From Nitrospiraceae bacterium (GTDB lineage Bacteria; Nitrospirota; Nitrospiria; Nitrospirales; Nitrospiraceae), in NCBI GenBank assembly GCA_035623075.1, contig DASPUC010000022.1, positions 186,001 to 250,000 of the forward strand: a stretch of DNA of 64,000 nt, given 5' to 3'. The translations under genes and the position numbers were made by a program. A model generated the notes under the pieces. That model saw nothing but the letters and a program-made list of their open reading frames with translations. It did not search any database and had not been told where the DNA came from. Positions 42,619 through 50,585 of the stretch are shown here, piece by piece. Positions within the stretch are counted from its first letter, which is position 1. The number at the start of each line of letters is the position of its first letter.

Positions 42619-43053
42619 ATGAAACTATCAAAGAAAAGCGAATATGGCCTTCGAGCCCTGCTAGAACTTACCCTCGCCTACGGCAAGACCTCACTTCAAC
42701 GTCACGACATCGCAGACCGTCAACACATTCCTGTGGAGTTTCTCGAACAAATTTTACTCGCACTGAAGCGTGCCGGTTTGCTTGCCAGCCGACGGGGAAT
42801 GAAAGGCGGCTATCAGCTGATCAAACGACCAGAAGACATTACGGTTGGCCAAGTCATCCGCATTCTGGATGGCCCGCTTGCGCCAATCAGCTGTGTGAGC
42901 AAGACAGCCTACCAAAAATGTCGAGATTGCCCCTATGCGGACAAACCAGTCTGTCCGGTCCAGCAGGTGATGGGACCGGTACGCGACGCCATTGCAGATA
43001 TCCTGGACAACTATACATTAAATGACTTCGCAGCAAGTCGTCGAGAAGGGTAG
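42619..43053 (+). CDS. Rrf2-family transcriptional regulator
   Basis: A 144-residue regulator. The winged helix occupies residues 1-90 (KKSEYGLRALLELTLAYG, then FLEQILLALKRAGLLASRRGMKGGY). Four Cys follow near residues 94-115 with spacing CX8CX2CX7C, which could bind an Fe-S cluster or sense redox; the spacing differs from IscR. No clear ribosome binding site precedes the ATG, so the transcript may be short-leadered. It is 3 nt from a TauE/SafE exporter gene, so it probably controls that gene in response to sulfur or redox state. Confidence 0.85.
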   Translation: MKLSKKSEYGLRALLELTLAYGKTSLQRHDIADRQHIPVEFLEQILLALKRAGLLASRRGMKGGYQLIKRPEDITVGQVIRILDGPLAPISCVSKTAYQKCRDCPYADKPVCPVQQVMGPVRDAIADILDNYTLNDFAASRREG

Positions 43054-43055
43054 CC

Positions 43056-43889
43056 ATGGACCAAATTGTGCTGATCCTCATCACGTTCCTCGCTGCAACA
43101 GTCAATGGAGCTCTGGGATATGGCTTTTCCTCCATCACTGTTCCCGTCGCCTTGTTGTTTTATACCAATCGCGTCTTGAATCCAGCCCTGGTTCTCGTTG
43201 AACTCGTGATCAATAGCTACGTCCTCTACATCAACCGGAAGAGCATCCCGAACATTTGGTGGCGCGTCGCACCTATTCTTATCGGCCTGGGGATCGGCAT
43301 TGGGATCGGGAGCTATATCCTTTTTATGGTCCAACCGGCCTGGATTAAATTTGTAACCTACATTACTTTACTACCTCTGATTCTCCTCCAGGCTGCCGGA
43401 ATCAGAAAACCTATTCGTGCCGAGAAAACCATTGCCATCCCTTTTGGGATGGGAATCGGTACGCTCTATTCCGTCACCACCATCTCCGGCCCTCCCTTGG
43501 CGTTGCTGTTTAACAATCAAGGATATGCCAAGCAGGATTTCCGAGCCGCCTTGGGTGTTATTCGTGTGGCCGAATCCAGTCTGACCGCCGTGGCATATGG
43601 CTTCCTCGGCCTCTACAGTGCCGGTAGTATGGAAATCATTCCGTTGATTGTCCCGAGCGTGTTGCTGGGTATTCCTCTTGGAACGTATCTGATCCGCTGG
43701 ATGGATCCCGAAACATTCCGGCGGATCTGTATGGCGTTTGATGCCTTGGTAGTCGCGTTTGGCTTGTCCCGAGTGCTCGTCGAGTTGCAACTGGCCTCTG
43801 CTATTACCACGTACACCATCCTGTCAATCGTGGTCCTCCTCAATGGGTTCCTATTGTATCGCTTCTTCAAAGAACGCTCGGTCCCGTAA
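43056..43889 (+). CDS. TauE/SafE-family exporter
   Basis: A 277-residue inner-membrane protein with about eight helices. The opening LITFLAATVNGALGYGFSSI is the family signature, and the repeated GxxxGSxxL-type segments are typical. TauE/SafE proteins export sulfite, sulfoacetate or related organic anions. Being in an operon with the Rrf2 regulator suggests a sulfur-compound exporter. The specific substrate is inferred from the family. Confidence 0.8.
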   Translation: MDQIVLILITFLAATVNGALGYGFSSITVPVALLFYTNRVLNPALVLVELVINSYVLYINRKSIPNIWWRVAPILIGLGIGIGIGSYILFMVQPAWIKFVTYITLLPLILLQAAGIRKPIRAEKTIAIPFGMGIGTLYSVTTISGPPLALLFNNQGYAKQDFRAALGVIRVAESSLTAVAYGFLGLYSAGSMEIIPLIVPSVLLGIPLGTYLIRWMDPETFRRICMAFDALVVAFGLSRVLVELQLASAITTYTILSIVVLLNGFLLYRFFKERSVP

Positions 43890-44885: not shown

Positions 44886-46751
44886 ATGGCTGGTTCGACG
44901 ATACCATCCGAGCTTGTCAGCGAGCTTCACAACAAAGCGACACAGCTCCGAATCGACTGCGTGCGAGCTACTTCTGAAGCCGGGAGCGGCCATCCCTCCA
45001 GTTGCTGTTCAGCCGCAGACATTGTGGCTGCACTTTTCTTTTCCGTCATGCGCTATGATCCGAAGAATCCGAAAGCTCGCAATAGTGATCGCTTTGTCCT
45101 CTCGAAGGGCCACGCGGCGCCTTTGCTTTATGCCGCCTGGGCTGAAGCAGGACTTTTTCCCAAGGGCGATCTGTTGAAATTACGAACCTTGACATCAGAT
45201 TTGGAAGGGCACCCGACTCCCCGCCTGTCCTTTGTCGACATGGCCACCGGCTCCCTCGGTCAAGGACTGCCCGTTGGGATCGGTATCGCCTTGAATGCCA
45301 AATATATCGATAAGCTAGACCATCGCACCTACGTCCTCATGGGTGATGGAGAGTCCGTCGAAGGGTCTGTCTGGGAAGCGGTCGAAGCAGCTCGCCATCA
45401 CCAACTCGATAACTTGTGCGCGGTCGTCGATATCAACCGTCTCGGCCAAAGCGACCCCACCATGCTGCAACACGATATGGAGGCCTATCACTCACGATGG
45501 AGCGGATTCGGTTGGCACGCGATCGTCGTGGATGGACACGATCTTTCCGCATTGCTTGCGGCCTTCGACGAGGCGTCGCACGTAGCAGGCAAACCAACCG
45601 TCCTGCTGGCCAAGACGCTGAAAGGCCGCGGCATCTCGTTCATGGAAAACCACCCGAGCTGGCATGGAAAACCAATTCCCAAAGGGGAAGAGACGCAGAA
45701 GGCCATCGACGAACTGACCAGACAGTTCAAACCCATCAGTGCATCGGTACGCATTCAGACGCCGACGGCATCAGCTCCCCGTTCTTTCGCCGCCAACCCT
45801 CTTCCGCGTTCCCCATACAAGCGAGGAGATTCCGCCGCGACGCGCGAAGCATTCGGGGTGGCCTTGGAGGCTCTCGGATCGGTGAACCAGTTAGTCGTGG
45901 GTCTCGATGCGGACGTCAAGAACTCAACCTACACGGACAAATTCGGCAAGAAGTTTCCCGATCGCTTTTTCGAGAACTTCATCGCCGAGCAGAACATGGT
46001 CGGTGCGGCAGCCGGCCTAGCAGCCTGCGGAAAGATCCCGTTCGCGGCGACATTCGCCTGTTTCCTTACACGGGCGTACGACTTCATCCGCATGGCGGCT
46101 ATCAGTCAATCGAATATCAAGCTCATCGGAACCCATGTAGGTGTCAGCATCGGTGAAGATGGCCCGTCCCAGATGGGTTTAGAAGACATCGCCATGATGG
46201 CCGCTCAGCCTGGTGTCACCGTGCTCTACCCTTCAGATGCCACCACCACCTACCGTCTGGTTGAACTTGCGGCGAACCACAAAGGTATGGTGTACCTGCG
46301 TGCCGGCCGTCCAAAGTCGCCCGTGTTATATGGACCTGAGGAAGAATTTCAAATCGGGGGAAGCAAGCTCGTTCGCCAAAGTGCCTCCGATACCCTGACG
46401 ATCGTCGCTGCAGGTGTCACTCTTTTTGAAGCCCTCAAGGCCCATGATCAATTGAAGGCTGCTGGAATCTCTGTACGAGTGATTGACCTCTATAGCATCG
46501 TCCCCATCGACCGCGCCACCTTAATGGACAGTGCCCGGCTCACACAGGGCAGAATCCTGACCGTGGAGGATCACTACCCCCACGGTGGATTGGGTGATGC
46601 AGTCCTCAGTGCAGTGGGATCGGAAGGCATTCGAGTACACAAATTGGCCATCCGTACGATTCCCCATAGCGGAAAGCCAGAGGAACTCGTGGATCACTTT
46701 GGCATCGGAGCGCGATCGATTGTTGAAGCGGCCAAACAAATCCTTAAGTAG
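44886..46751 (+). CDS. tkt: transketolase
   Basis: A 621-residue single-chain, TPP-dependent enzyme of the pentose phosphate pathway. The start region GHPSSCCSAADIVAALFF, the SKGH catalytic segment and GDGESVEGSVWEA (TPP-binding GDG-N-like) are seen in the N-terminal half. The pyrimidine domain has AEQNMVGAAAGLA, and the C-terminal domain is complete. Its length is that of mammalian-type transketolases. A strong ribosome binding site (GGAAGGAG) precedes ATG 44886. The Crp/Fnr gene overlaps its end. Confidence 0.95.
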   Translation: MAGSTIPSELVSELHNKATQLRIDCVRATSEAGSGHPSSCCSAADIVAALFFSVMRYDPKNPKARNSDRFVLSKGHAAPLLYAAWAEAGLFPKGDLLKLRTLTSDLEGHPTPRLSFVDMATGSLGQGLPVGIGIALNAKYIDKLDHRTYVLMGDGESVEGSVWEAVEAARHHQLDNLCAVVDINRLGQSDPTMLQHDMEAYHSRWSGFGWHAIVVDGHDLSALLAAFDEASHVAGKPTVLLAKTLKGRGISFMENHPSWHGKPIPKGEETQKAIDELTRQFKPISASVRIQTPTASAPRSFAANPLPRSPYKRGDSAATREAFGVALEALGSVNQLVVGLDADVKNSTYTDKFGKKFPDRFFENFIAEQNMVGAAAGLAACGKIPFAATFACFLTRAYDFIRMAAISQSNIKLIGTHVGVSIGEDGPSQMGLEDIAMMAAQPGVTVLYPSDATTTYRLVELAANHKGMVYLRAGRPKSPVLYGPEEEFQIGGSKLVRQSASDTLTIVAAGVTLFEALKAHDQLKAAGISVRVIDLYSIVPIDRATLMDSARLTQGRILTVEDHYPHGGLGDAVLSAVGSEGIRVHKLAIRTIPHSGKPEELVDHFGIGARSIVEAAKQILK

Positions 46752-47448
46752 CCGGTCCGGTTCTGACCTCCCTCGCGAACTCGACCGTATTCCCCTGCTG
46801 AATATCCTGGCTCGATCAGACCGCCAACGCATGCTCCAAGAACTCACCGAGTCCCAGTACGGGAAGAACGATGTGATTTTCCGGGAAGGCGACCCCACTG
46901 AATATTTTCACATCGTGAAAGAAGGCACGGTGAAGTGCGTGAAGTCCACGCCGGACGGGAAAGAATGCACCATCAAGATGTTGATGCCCGGCGATCTTTT
47001 TTGCTGCGACGCCGCTGCGTTCGAGGGAGCCTGCCACCCCGGCACTGCTCAACCGATGGGAAACGTCAGCATTCTCCGCCTAAGCAAGAAGTCCTACCTC
47101 GACATGTTGCGGCATAACCCGGAGGCTGCAATAGAAGTGATCAAATATCTGGGAACCCGCCTGCACGAAGCGCAGGAGAAAACCAAGATTCTGGCGTTGG
47201 ACCGGGCCGACCAGCGTCTTGCGTCCCTCCTCGTCGACCTCGCCACGCGGAACGGCATCGAAGACCCCCACGGTATTCGCTTGAACATACGGCTCACGCG
47301 GGAAGACATGGCCAACATGGTCGGTATCACCACAGAGACTGCCATCCGAATCATGAGTCGATTTAAACGGGGTCGCCTCGTTTCCGGTACCGCCAAGCGG
47401 CTCATTATCCGCGATCTCCCTCGGTTGAAAGGCCTCGCCGCAGGCTGA
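46720..47448 (+). CDS. Crp/Fnr-family transcription regulator
   Basis: A 242-residue regulator whose likely start is TTG 46720, 9 nt after GGAG and inside tkt (32-nt overlap). The cyclic-nucleotide-binding-like beta-barrel spans residues about 20-145 (DVIFREGDPTEYFHIVKEGTVK), a long C-helix follows, and the winged helix contains LTREDMANMVGITTETAIRIMSRF. The E-T-A-I-R recognition helix resembles the E-xx-(S)R of FNR. The N-terminal FNR Cys cluster is absent, but a CC pair (LFCCDAA) and other Cys are present. It may sense redox or NO. It lies 180 nt before nirK, which has a matching palindrome. Confidence 0.85.
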   Translation: MLKRPNKSLSSRSGSDLPRELDRIPLLNILARSDRQRMLQELTESQYGKNDVIFREGDPTEYFHIVKEGTVKCVKSTPDGKECTIKMLMPGDLFCCDAAAFEGACHPGTAQPMGNVSILRLSKKSYLDMLRHNPEAAIEVIKYLGTRLHEAQEKTKILALDRADQRLASLLVDLATRNGIEDPHGIRLNIRLTREDMANMVGITTETAIRIMSRFKRGRLVSGTAKRLIIRDLPRLKGLAAG

Positions 47449-47491
47449 CAGCCGGCTCTCGTGCAAAGCCAGGTCTTCCGGTTTGTTTCAA

Positions 47492-47511
47492 AATATGACA
47501 TTAGTCATATT
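47492..47511 (+). promoter_or_regulatory. Crp/Fnr-type palindrome upstream of nirK
   Basis: AATATGAC-ATTA-GTCATATT has perfect 8-bp arms around a 4-nt centre, the half-site geometry of FNR-like operators (TTGAT-N4-ATCAA) but with TGAC halves. Its centre is 41.5 bp from the start point predicted from the TATGCT at 47531-47536. That is the exact class II activator position. Confidence 0.7.
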
Positions 47512-47530
47512 GCGGGCCTGGCATTCTGTG

Positions 47531-47536
47531 TATGCT
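47531..47536 (+). promoter_or_regulatory. -10 element of the nirK promoter
   Basis: TATGCT (4/6 to TATAAT) places initiation near 47543. No -35 box is needed if the palindrome at 47492 is bound by an activator. About 86 nt of leader remains before the ATG. Confidence 0.45.
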
Positions 47537-47628
47537 CCCTCCACCATGAGCGAACGAAAAACCGCCGAGTAGTCCCGGCCGTTCAGGTATTCGGCTGTGA
47601 ATCCATTAGCAATAGGAGGAGCATTGGG

Positions 47629-48609
47629 ATGATGCAATCACAAAGTGCCTCTTGCAGACTCGCTGTCGCGGCGAGCCTGCTGGTTGCAGGGGCAGTAGTC
47701 ACTCCAGCGGCATGGGCCAAAACGCACGAAATCACGATGACCGCCGTAGAAACCGACGTCGTGATCGACGGCAGCGGTGAGAAGTACGCAGCCTGGACAT
47801 TTGACGGCCAGATGCCAGGCCCGGTTGTGCGGGTCACAGAAGGCGACACGATCAACTTCACGCTTAGGAACCCGGAGACCAACAAAAATCCTCATGCGAT
47901 GGATTTTCACGCTGCAGAAATCGATTTTCTCAAGAACTATCGGGCAATCAACGCCGGCGAAACCATCAGCTATACGTTTGTCGCCAAGAAGCCCGGCATC
48001 TTCTTCTATCACTGCGGAGCGCCTCCGATGATCCAACACATCGCGCGCGGCATGTTCGGCGCGATTATCGTCGATCCAAAGGAGGCGAAAGCCTGGCCCA
48101 AGGCAGATCGCGAGTATGTTTTAATTCAGTCTGAATACTTTAAGAATCCCGGCGATGTGCAGGCGATGTTCGACCGGAAGTTCGACGGCATGATGTTCAA
48201 TGGCGGCATCTTCAAGTACCATCCGTTTGTGACTGGTGGCGGGAAGCTGGATGCCAAGCCTGGCGAACGGGTCCGGATCTACTTCGTCAACGCCGGACCG
48301 AACGAGTTTTCCTCGTTCCACCCGATCGGTGAGATTTGGGACAACGTCTATGAGAGCGGCAATCCGGCCAATAGTTTGAAGGGCGTGCAGACGTACGTCG
48401 TAGGGCCCGGTAGCGCGGCCACCTTCGATGTGGTGATCGAGTCCGCCGGTGCATACCCGCTGGTGACCCACTCATTGACAGGCGCTCTCCGTGGCGCGAT
48501 TGCGGTTCTCCTGGCCTCGCCTGACGCCAAACCAGCGCCACTGATGCCGATGGTGCCGTGGAAAATTGCGACACCACAAACAGAGATTACGCCAGTCCCA
48601 ACGCCATAA
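47629..48609 (+). CDS. nirK: copper-containing nitrite reductase
   Basis: A 326-residue periplasmic multicopper enzyme reducing nitrite to NO. ATG 47629 is chosen because AGGAGGAG is 8 nt upstream. A signal peptide (LAVAASLLVAGAVVTPAAWA) is present. Type-1 copper ligands lie in NPHAMDFH and HCGAPPMIQHIARGM; the catalytic Asp is in AMDFHAA, and the catalytic His is in FHPIGEIWDN. The last copper ligand His is in VTHSLTGALRG. The length (about 300 mature residues) is that of a two-domain NirK without a fused cytochrome. Confidence 0.9.
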   Translation: MMQSQSASCRLAVAASLLVAGAVVTPAAWAKTHEITMTAVETDVVIDGSGEKYAAWTFDGQMPGPVVRVTEGDTINFTLRNPETNKNPHAMDFHAAEIDFLKNYRAINAGETISYTFVAKKPGIFFYHCGAPPMIQHIARGMFGAIIVDPKEAKAWPKADREYVLIQSEYFKNPGDVQAMFDRKFDGMMFNGGIFKYHPFVTGGGKLDAKPGERVRIYFVNAGPNEFSSFHPIGEIWDNVYESGNPANSLKGVQTYVVGPGSAATFDVVIESAGAYPLVTHSLTGALRGAIAVLLASPDAKPAPLMPMVPWKIATPQTEITPVPTP

Positions 48610-48673: not shown

Positions 48674-49060
48674 GTGGTCAACAGACACTTCCTTCTCCAC
48701 CTCGCATTCGCTTGCGGAGTCGTGAGTATCCCTGCCCTCGTCGGTGCAGCAGATGAGTGCATCACACTCCTATTCTCAGGATTGGCATGTCAGCACAGTT
48801 ATGCAACGCTTGAGCAGAACCTCATGCGCATTCCTGGCGTGACGCGGATCGACTCCCATACGGTTCCAAACCATATTCTCATCGACGCAGATTCTGCTCT
48901 TGTAGACCCTGATTCATTGGTCGTTCGCGCGAACAACCTCCTCGAAGCGGAACCTCCCTGCCGGGTCACACGGATGAAGTCCTGCATATCAGCAGACCTT
49001 CGCACGACCATCGGACAAACCCCAGAGGAAACTTCTTCGATTTCCCAGTTTGGTCAATGA
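48674..49060 (+). CDS. periplasmic HMA-like protein without the full metal motif
   Basis: A 128-residue protein from GTG 48674, without a good ribosome binding site. A signal peptide (LLHLAFACGVVSIPALVGAA) is followed by a heavy-metal-associated-like fold: GLACQHSYATLEQNLMRIPGV, then IDADSALVDPDSLVVRANNLLE. The usual CxHC... metal motif CxxC is here CQHS, so only one Cys remains. Other Cys near the end (PCRVTRMKSC) may compensate. Copper binding near NirK is an attractive but unproven idea. Confidence 0.65.
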   Translation: MVNRHFLLHLAFACGVVSIPALVGAADECITLLFSGLACQHSYATLEQNLMRIPGVTRIDSHTVPNHILIDADSALVDPDSLVVRANNLLEAEPPCRVTRMKSCISADLRTTIGQTPEETSSISQFGQ

Positions 49061-49556: not shown

Positions 49557-50450
49557 TTATGACTTCTGGTGCACCCTTCGTTCTATTCGTCTCACGATGG
49601 AATCCACTGAGATCAAGTGGTGCGATACGCCCAAATTTTTGGCTGGGACGCCGATGGCCAGCCCGAGCAATTGGGGAAGGTGCAGGATCGGCAGATTGAG
49701 CGATGTATTCACTGCCCGACCAGCCCGCTCCTGATAGATATCGAGACTCATATGGCACAAGGGACAAGGGGTTACCATGAAATCAGCTCCTCCGTCTTTG
49801 GCCTCTTTCATGTGGTTTCCCGCCATCGCCACTGCGATCGCCTCCTTTTCAAGAATGATCGGAAAACCGCAACATTGCGTGCGACCCGTGTAGGCGACCG
49901 GTTCCCCACCCACAGCGCTGATTACTTTCTCGAGCGACTGAGGATTTTCCGGATCGTCGAATCCCAGATCCCATGACGGACGCAAGATGTAACAGCCGTA
50001 AAACGGAGCGATGCGAAACTCCCGCATGGGAACGGAGACGAGTCCGCGCAAGCGCGTCAAGCCGATCTCGCGTACCACAATCCACAAAAGATGCTTGACT
50101 TGAACCCGCCCTCGATACTGCACTCCTTCCGGTTCCAACAATCGGTTGATCCGATCCAGCAAGCCTGATTCTGTCTTCAAACGCCGATTGGCGGCACTCA
50201 TCACCCCCTGACAGGTGCCACAGATCGTCATCACGTCTAGTCCCAACACCTCCGCCTGTGCGAACGTCCGAGCATTGAGCGCTAACGCGACGTCCGGATC
50301 GGCCTCCGTCACGACACCGGCCCCGCAGCACGACGCGGCCGCCAGCTCGACAACGTCGATTCCCAATCGACTGATGATGGCCATCGTCGACAGGTATAGC
50401 TCAGGCGTTGCCCCCTTCGCTGCACAGCCGGGGTATAACGCATACTTCAT
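49557..50450 (-). CDS. CCG-domain subunit (SdhE/HdrB-like)
   Basis: A 297-residue protein with two complete CCG domains: YPGC near residue 9, SCCGAG near residue 42 and ICGTCQG near 75; then YGCY, QCCGFP and PCPLCH. These bind noncubane Fe-S clusters in heterodisulfide reductase B and in SdhE of class E succinate:quinone reductases. ATG 50450 is the likely start. The SdhB-type subunit lies 4.3 kb away at 54740, so they may form one quinone-linked complex, although the genes are not adjacent. Confidence 0.85.
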   Translation of the reverse strand: MKYALYPGCAAKGATPELYLSTMAIISRLGIDVVELAAASCCGAGVVTEADPDVALALNARTFAQAEVLGLDVMTICGTCQGVMSAANRRLKTESGLLDRINRLLEPEGVQYRGRVQVKHLLWIVVREIGLTRLRGLVSVPMREFRIAPFYGCYILRPSWDLGFDDPENPQSLEKVISAVGGEPVAYTGRTQCCGFPIILEKEAIAVAMAGNHMKEAKDGGADFMVTPCPLCHMSLDIYQERAGRAVNTSLNLPILHLPQLLGLAIGVPAKNLGVSHHLISVDSIVRRIERRVHQKS

Positions 50451-50585
50451 GATGGGCACACCTCGATGCCAGTCATCCTTTACGGCAGTATATGCTAGAC
50501 GAGCGGTCAAAATCAGGTGGCTTTGACGCTGAGCCGCGCTTTCAGCTAGGCTGGTTGTCCAGCAAGACGTTCACTGAGTAGCACA

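Follow-up and report, generated by a model that had tools for sequence, protein, structure and literature searches.

A Crp/Fnr-type regulator and a conserved candidate operator at the nirK promoter of Nitrospiraceae

Gene order and promoter layout at the nirK locus

The window analyzed here is a stretch of 64,000 nucleotides from a Nitrospiraceae genome (GenBank assembly GCA_035623075.1, contig DASPUC010000022.1, positions 186,001 to 250,000); Ca. Nitrospira defluvii and N. moscoviensis are among its relatives in the family. In this window, a transketolase-like gene is followed by a gene for a Crp/Fnr-type regulator, an intergenic stretch that contains a palindrome, and nirK (Table 1). The 3' end of the transketolase-like gene overlaps the start of the regulator gene by ~32 bases, and the two genes are therefore probably co-transcribed; a transketolase gene is likewise found before the regulator gene throughout the family and in the sister family. 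The closest solved structure to NirK is 4kns (E 7e-108), which we take to be the Nitrosomonas europaea enzyme, and in the alignment of the two all type-1 and type-2 copper ligands are kept, as are the catalytic Asp and His that define a NirK. The score of NirK on the curated model TIGR02376 (196.5) falls under the cut-off of 296.3, which marks the protein as a divergent, nitrifier-type NirK.

Table 1. Features of the nirK locus, numbered from the first base of the window
Feature	Position	Strand	Remarks
Transketolase-like gene	44886..46751	+	Pfam Transketolase_N/pyr/C
Crp/Fnr-type regulator gene	46720..47448	+	Pfam cNMP_binding and HTH_Crp_2; TTG start at 46720 or 46723
A/T-rich tract, candidate alpha-CTD contact	47481..47489	+	at ~-55 to -62; A/T columns conserved among 50 non-redundant promoters, putative function
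Candidate operator dyad AATATGAC-ATTA-GTCATATT	47492..47511	+	family consensus AAAACATGAY-N4-RTCATGTTTT
Likely -10 element TATGCT	47531..47536	+	first base 29.5 bp from dyad center
Predicted transcription start	47543	+	from the -10 element; dyad center (47501.5) at -41.5
nirK, copper nitrite reductase	47629..48609	+	type of solved structure 4kns; RBS GGAGGA before ATG 47629

Three further observations concern neighboring genes. A small open reading frame after nirK (48677-49060) is weakly similar to copper chaperones (CopZ/MerP, E about 0.003), a gene with CCG (HdrB-like cysteine-rich) domains lies on the minus strand at 49560-50510, and at 42619-43889 a gene for an Rrf2-family regulator is directly followed by a TauE/SafE transporter gene, making the two a candidate local regulator-target pair.

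An earlier note on this DNA had described the palindrome as a perfect 8+4+8 dyad centered 41.5 bp before the transcription start predicted from the -10 box, and both statements were verified. Because the start was placed by the usual spacing between a -10 element and the start, all positions of -41.5 and -42.5 given here are predicted accordingly. By reading of the sequence, no good -35 hexamer is present 16-18 bp upstream of the -10 element, and such a poor -35 region fits dependence on an activator. With up to three mismatches allowed, the window contains no further match to the dyad (chance expectation, 0.11), and its 16-base core, TATGAC-N4-GTCATA, has exactly one exact copy in the 3.39 Mb genome. 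Searches for a regulon were based on patterns rather than on a weight matrix. Two matches to the core with one mismatch (L002 and L003) have no nirK and look like chance, and a pattern combining the dyad with the -10 element gave one extra match, in the inner core only (G000:C11:5254), so that a larger regulon in the window genome was discarded. nirK appears to be the only credible strict target of the regulator in this genome.

Conservation of the dyad and its association with the regulator

A search of 175 family genomes returned intact or near-intact orthologs of the regulator in 82; the 82 intact loci considered below overlap with these 82 genomes without matching them one to one, since two of the loci come from a single genome and a split gene is not among the loci. 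Conservation of the dyad upstream of nirK in relatives, on which the earlier note had made its reading depend, was found throughout, with the dyad and its spacing to the -10 element kept in 82 of 82 intact loci. The dyad lies after the stop codon of the regulator gene in 81 of these loci, at a distance of 17-59 bp, and overlaps the stop codon in L080 (genome G013). The consensus of 50 non-redundant promoters is AAAACATGAYNNNNRTCATGTTTT, with no variation at any of the eight bases of ATGA and TCAT; the -10 columns (TATNCT) also stand out, while the spacer between the dyad and the -10 element is nearly random. A TA---T element begins 29.5 bp from the dyad center in 56 of the 82 loci and 30.5 bp from it in 26, corresponding to predicted dyad positions of -41.5 and -42.5, respectively; no other spacing occurs within the range scanned. 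Upstream, a conserved A/T block extends from -20 to -14 relative to the dyad center, or from -62 to -55 relative to the predicted start, and it is this region that the C-terminal domain of the RNA polymerase alpha subunit (alpha-CTD) contacts at class II promoters of CRP and FNR. Given the predicted start, the window promoter thus combines a site near -41.5, a poor -35 region and an upstream A/T tract, as class II activator-dependent promoters do, and the class II position that had been assigned to the dyad in the window is conserved in geometry and A/T tract across the family promoters.

A site at -41.5 covers the position of the -35 region, and Crp/Fnr proteins can repress from sites overlapping -35. 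The regulator might accordingly repress nirK by blocking this region until a signal releases it. Transcription in N. moscoviensis, where several nirK genes are transcribed in a manner described as constitutive under nitrite-oxidizing conditions (PMC6606698), would agree with a repressor, and regulation of nirK may therefore be weak or tuned. However, three features seen here, namely a fixed spacing of -41.5 or -42.5, the lack of a -35 hexamer and a conserved A/T tract at -55 to -62, would not be required of a repressor site, and we regard repression as unlikely compared with activation.

Strict sites at a second position occur in seven genomes, in every case at the promoter of an unlinked nirK2 (59-63% identical) with no regulator nearby. 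In the close nirK2 group, the dyad lies at -41.5 or -42.5 in 11 of 11 readable promoters, one further promoter being cut by a contig end and not included in the 11; no clear dyad was seen at the two more distant nirK2 loci inspected (L229 and L230). In one genome (G047), a further dyad (L132, 2501-2520), correctly spaced from a -10 element, lies at a divergent promoter, ahead of a ferredoxin-thioredoxin-reductase (FTR)-like gene and then an HDOD gene. At L050, L081/L135 and L087, the regulator and the dyad are followed by a cytochrome c operon instead of nirK; by reading of the sequence, the operon of L050 includes a cupredoxin-like protein, and in L087 a carbonic-anhydrase-like protein lies between the dyad and the operon. 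A recurrent second match in relatives (ATGACYTTGATCATCGG...) was rejected as a conserved protein-coding start without A/T flanks. The search for the dyad at other genes, which the earlier note had proposed, thus found the core to be unique in the window genome and revealed nirK2, cytochrome c and FTR-like sites in relatives. The accompanying description of regulator, palindrome and nirK as a self-contained module is apt insofar as the window genome has no credible strict target besides nirK, but it does not extend to the regulator gene, with its start inside the transketolase gene, or to the relatives that carry the dyad at these other genes.

These sites also bear on the possibility that the dyad is no operator but an intrinsic terminator or RNA hairpin ending the regulator transcript. 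The short distance from the regulator stop codon, a T run after the dyad in most relatives, and predicted RNA folding that reaches -15.9 kcal/mol in one relative (-8.4 in the window, z -1.9) are what a terminator would lead one to expect, whereas the fixed spacing to the -10 element and the presence of the dyad at nirK2 and at the divergent promoter of L132 are not. Moreover, the bases at the inner positions assort independently of one another, and in 6 of 82 loci they form C-A mismatches that would disrupt the hairpin; the dyad overlaps a stop codon in G013, and the stem is A/T-rich. On account of the -10 spacing, the trans sites and the pair-breaking inner positions, we dropped the terminator as a very improbable explanation.

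The strict pattern AAYATGAYNNNNRTCATRTT, which mostly occurs once per genome, is present in 73 of the 82 genomes with the regulator versus 2 of the 93 without it (Fisher p 2.6e-36 over 175 genomes, a value inflated by shared ancestry). The remaining nine regulator genomes, G013 among them, carry a near match in place, and in the two regulator-less genomes with a strict dyad (G134 and G151) there is no matching promoter. Where the regulator is broken (G136, G153 and G155), neither the dyad nor the neighboring nirK is left, and the dyad is absent from 20 of 20 promoters of related nirK genes (~70% identical) in regulator-less genomes. Relatives hold several Crp/Fnr paralogs (~28-30% identity), and one of these could in principle be served by the dyad, the neighboring regulator then controlling something else; yet the dyad tracks the regulator ortholog, disappears together with it and remains adjacent to it when the downstream gene changes, making a different binding partner highly unlikely. 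The regulator pseudogene loci L086, L090 and L091 amount to a natural knockout series in which nirK and the dyad were lost together.

The regulator compared with characterized Crp/Fnr proteins

The regulator has the domain architecture of the superfamily, with matches to PF00027 (cNMP_binding, 67.4 bits) and PF13545 (HTH_Crp_2, 64 bits) that both exceed the gathering cut-offs. Its AlphaFold model (pLDDT 80.6, pTM 0.71) has an ordinary Crp/Fnr fold, which Foldseek matched to CRP/GlxR with TM ~0.8 and also to FNR structures. As had been noted for the window protein, Glu and Arg are kept in the recognition helix (TTETAIR), and both E206 and R210 are invariant in 82 orthologs. The scores on curated NCBIfam models remain below the cut-offs, which are given in brackets, for FixK (73 bits [300]), Fnr (70 [228]) and CRP (66 [266]); the protein falls outside the curated Fnr, FixK, FnrL, NtcA and CRP subfamilies, and the NCBIfam matches include no NnrR or DNR model.

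In the sensor domain, H64, C73, C95, C96 and H106 are invariant in the alignment of 82 orthologs, and orthologs in the sister family retain the cysteines and an HPG motif. The cysteines are absent from homologs of delta-proteobacteria and Chloroflexi (35-41%), and none of the invariant cysteines occurs in homologs of other phyla whose recognition helix is nearly identical. For comparison, the regulator was aligned with E. coli CRP and FNR. In contrast to CRP, the regulator has C95-C96, together with one extra residue, at G71-E72 and HP in place of RS (R82, S83), and a CRP-like cAMP pocket is not retained. With E. coli FNR it shares the fold, the E-x-x-x-R recognition helix, the HP motif of the sensor, H106 and, as predicted here, the class II mode that FNR uses at many promoters; unlike FNR, it has neither the N-terminal cysteine cluster nor C122, the residues for the [4Fe-4S] cluster of FNR. 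The best match among solved structures is CooA (E 1.7e-19), which has a Cys at the same place in the GDxFC motif. However, the sequence here is GDLFCCD/E: in the aligned orthologs, Asp or Glu takes the place of the His that serves CooA as heme ligand two residues further on, and the heme site of CooA is therefore not retained. C73 and the vicinal pair C95-C96 at the cyclic-nucleotide pocket suggest that the input is a thiol, metal or NO/redox signal rather than cAMP or an iron-sulfur cluster as in FNR.

The candidate operator likewise differs from the operators of characterized family members. FNR recognizes TTGAT-N4-ATCAA versus ATGAY-N4-RTCAT here, and in 50 of 50 non-redundant sites the core begins with A. 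The earlier note had set the TGAC halves apart from FNR and CRP; the operator as a whole does differ, but the half-site is ATGAY, and TGAC by itself is not distinctive because HcpR has the motif wyTTGACnnnnGTCAArw with the core TTGAC-N4-GTCAA (PMC1274295). HcpR of delta-proteobacteria resembles the present regulator in its TGAC operator half, N4 spacing and small local regulons, and differs from it in the first base of the core (T versus A) and in its targets (hcp/frdX versus nirK). NnrR and DNR are NO-responsive Crp/Fnr-family activators of nir/nor genes and, similarly, govern nitrite reductase genes. Their motifs, ctTTGcgnnnncgCAAag for NnrR and TTGATnnnnATCAA for DNR (PMC1274295), are unlike ATGAY-N4-RTCAT, and the invariant set of sensor cysteines sets the regulator described here apart from them; assignment to either group would hinge on a response to NO. 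The suggestion that it represents an uncharacterized branch stands, and it is best read as a new Crp/Fnr branch with an operator of its own.

A proposed model for nirK activation and its possible history in Nitrospirales

Taken together, the observations are best explained by a model in which the regulator serves nirK as a dedicated activator of class II, and we consider this model as a whole probable, with good confidence. The regulator would bind ATGAY-N4-RTCAT, represented in the window by the dyad in Table 1, as a homodimer of Crp/Fnr fold with its center ~41.5 bp before the nirK start. In this position, it would cover the missing -35 region and touch sigma and the N-terminal domain of the alpha subunit of RNA polymerase, leaving the alpha-CTD free for the A/T tract just upstream of the dyad. 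The model is supported by conservation of the site, of its spacing and of its partner, by co-occurrence, by the trans sites and by co-loss; binding, activation rather than repression, the polymerase contacts and the signal are what we infer from sequence.

The adjacency of the regulator and nirK has been known since 2017, when several Nitrospira genomes were reported to carry an Fnr gene ahead of nirK, with a suggested role in its control (Camejo et al. 2017, PMC5596200). This is the same gene pair as here, and we found no analysis of operator, promoter geometry, regulon or sensor in that paper. A 2021 study named a Nitrospira Crp/Fnr homolog NnrR and applied an NnrR matrix (PMC8510549); if that protein is the regulator described here, its predicted operator differs from the matrix. 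A search of the open-licence literature yielded no description of an operator, a promoter layout or a sensor motif for the regulator. Predictions of its targets can use the candidate operator instead of matrices taken over from NnrR or FNR.

Nitrospira is a very widespread nitrite oxidizer, and NirK makes nitric oxide. To our knowledge, nirK transcripts have been seen in Nitrospira and denitrifying activity has not. A conserved regulator, operator and promoter provide a handle on when and why Nitrospira makes NirK, and hence nitric oxide.

The association can be followed beyond the family. In the sister family of the order, an ortholog of the regulator (~50% identical) is again encoded after a transketolase, and AATGAT-CTAT-ATCATT or a close variant lies before nirK in eight loci (L193, L195-L198 and L200-L202), with a spacing of 28.5 bp between the dyad and the -10 element; inspection of the sister-group loci L186, L189, L190, L192 and L203 found no such dyad. 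The copper nitrite reductase of the sister family is ~37% identical to NirK of the window and non-orthologous to it, and the one protein tested, from L197, passes TIGR02376 (326 bits; cut-off 296). A divergent regulator (44%) with the cysteine set kept is found in G061 (L088) and G058 (L089) upstream of a 70% identical nirK, the promoter of which has TTGAC-ATAG-ATCAA at ~-42.5. With different nirK genes found next to the regulator, their association seems to predate the particular nirK gene, and the operator sequence seems to have drifted among Nitrospirales relatives. A link between the T-to-A change in the core and a Ser-to-Ile change in the recognition helix was considered and rejected, since the sister family has Ser yet ATGAT.

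It is tempting to go further and to propose a Nitrospirales-wide nirK regulator that senses through C73, C95-C96 and H106 at the site where CRP binds cAMP, for example as a copper(I), NO or redox switch, and that followed nirK through non-orthologous replacement and operator change. We offer this combined reading tentatively, as possible but short of probable. We know of no other Crp/Fnr protein with such a cysteine-site mode of sensing, and the site would be a possible new sensor within a well-studied family.

Two minor observations concern the nirK genes of these relatives. Those of the sister family that occur with the regulator and the dyad are of the canonical NirK type, and regulator-less relatives of L088 and L089 have lost the dyad and retained the core of the nirK promoter.
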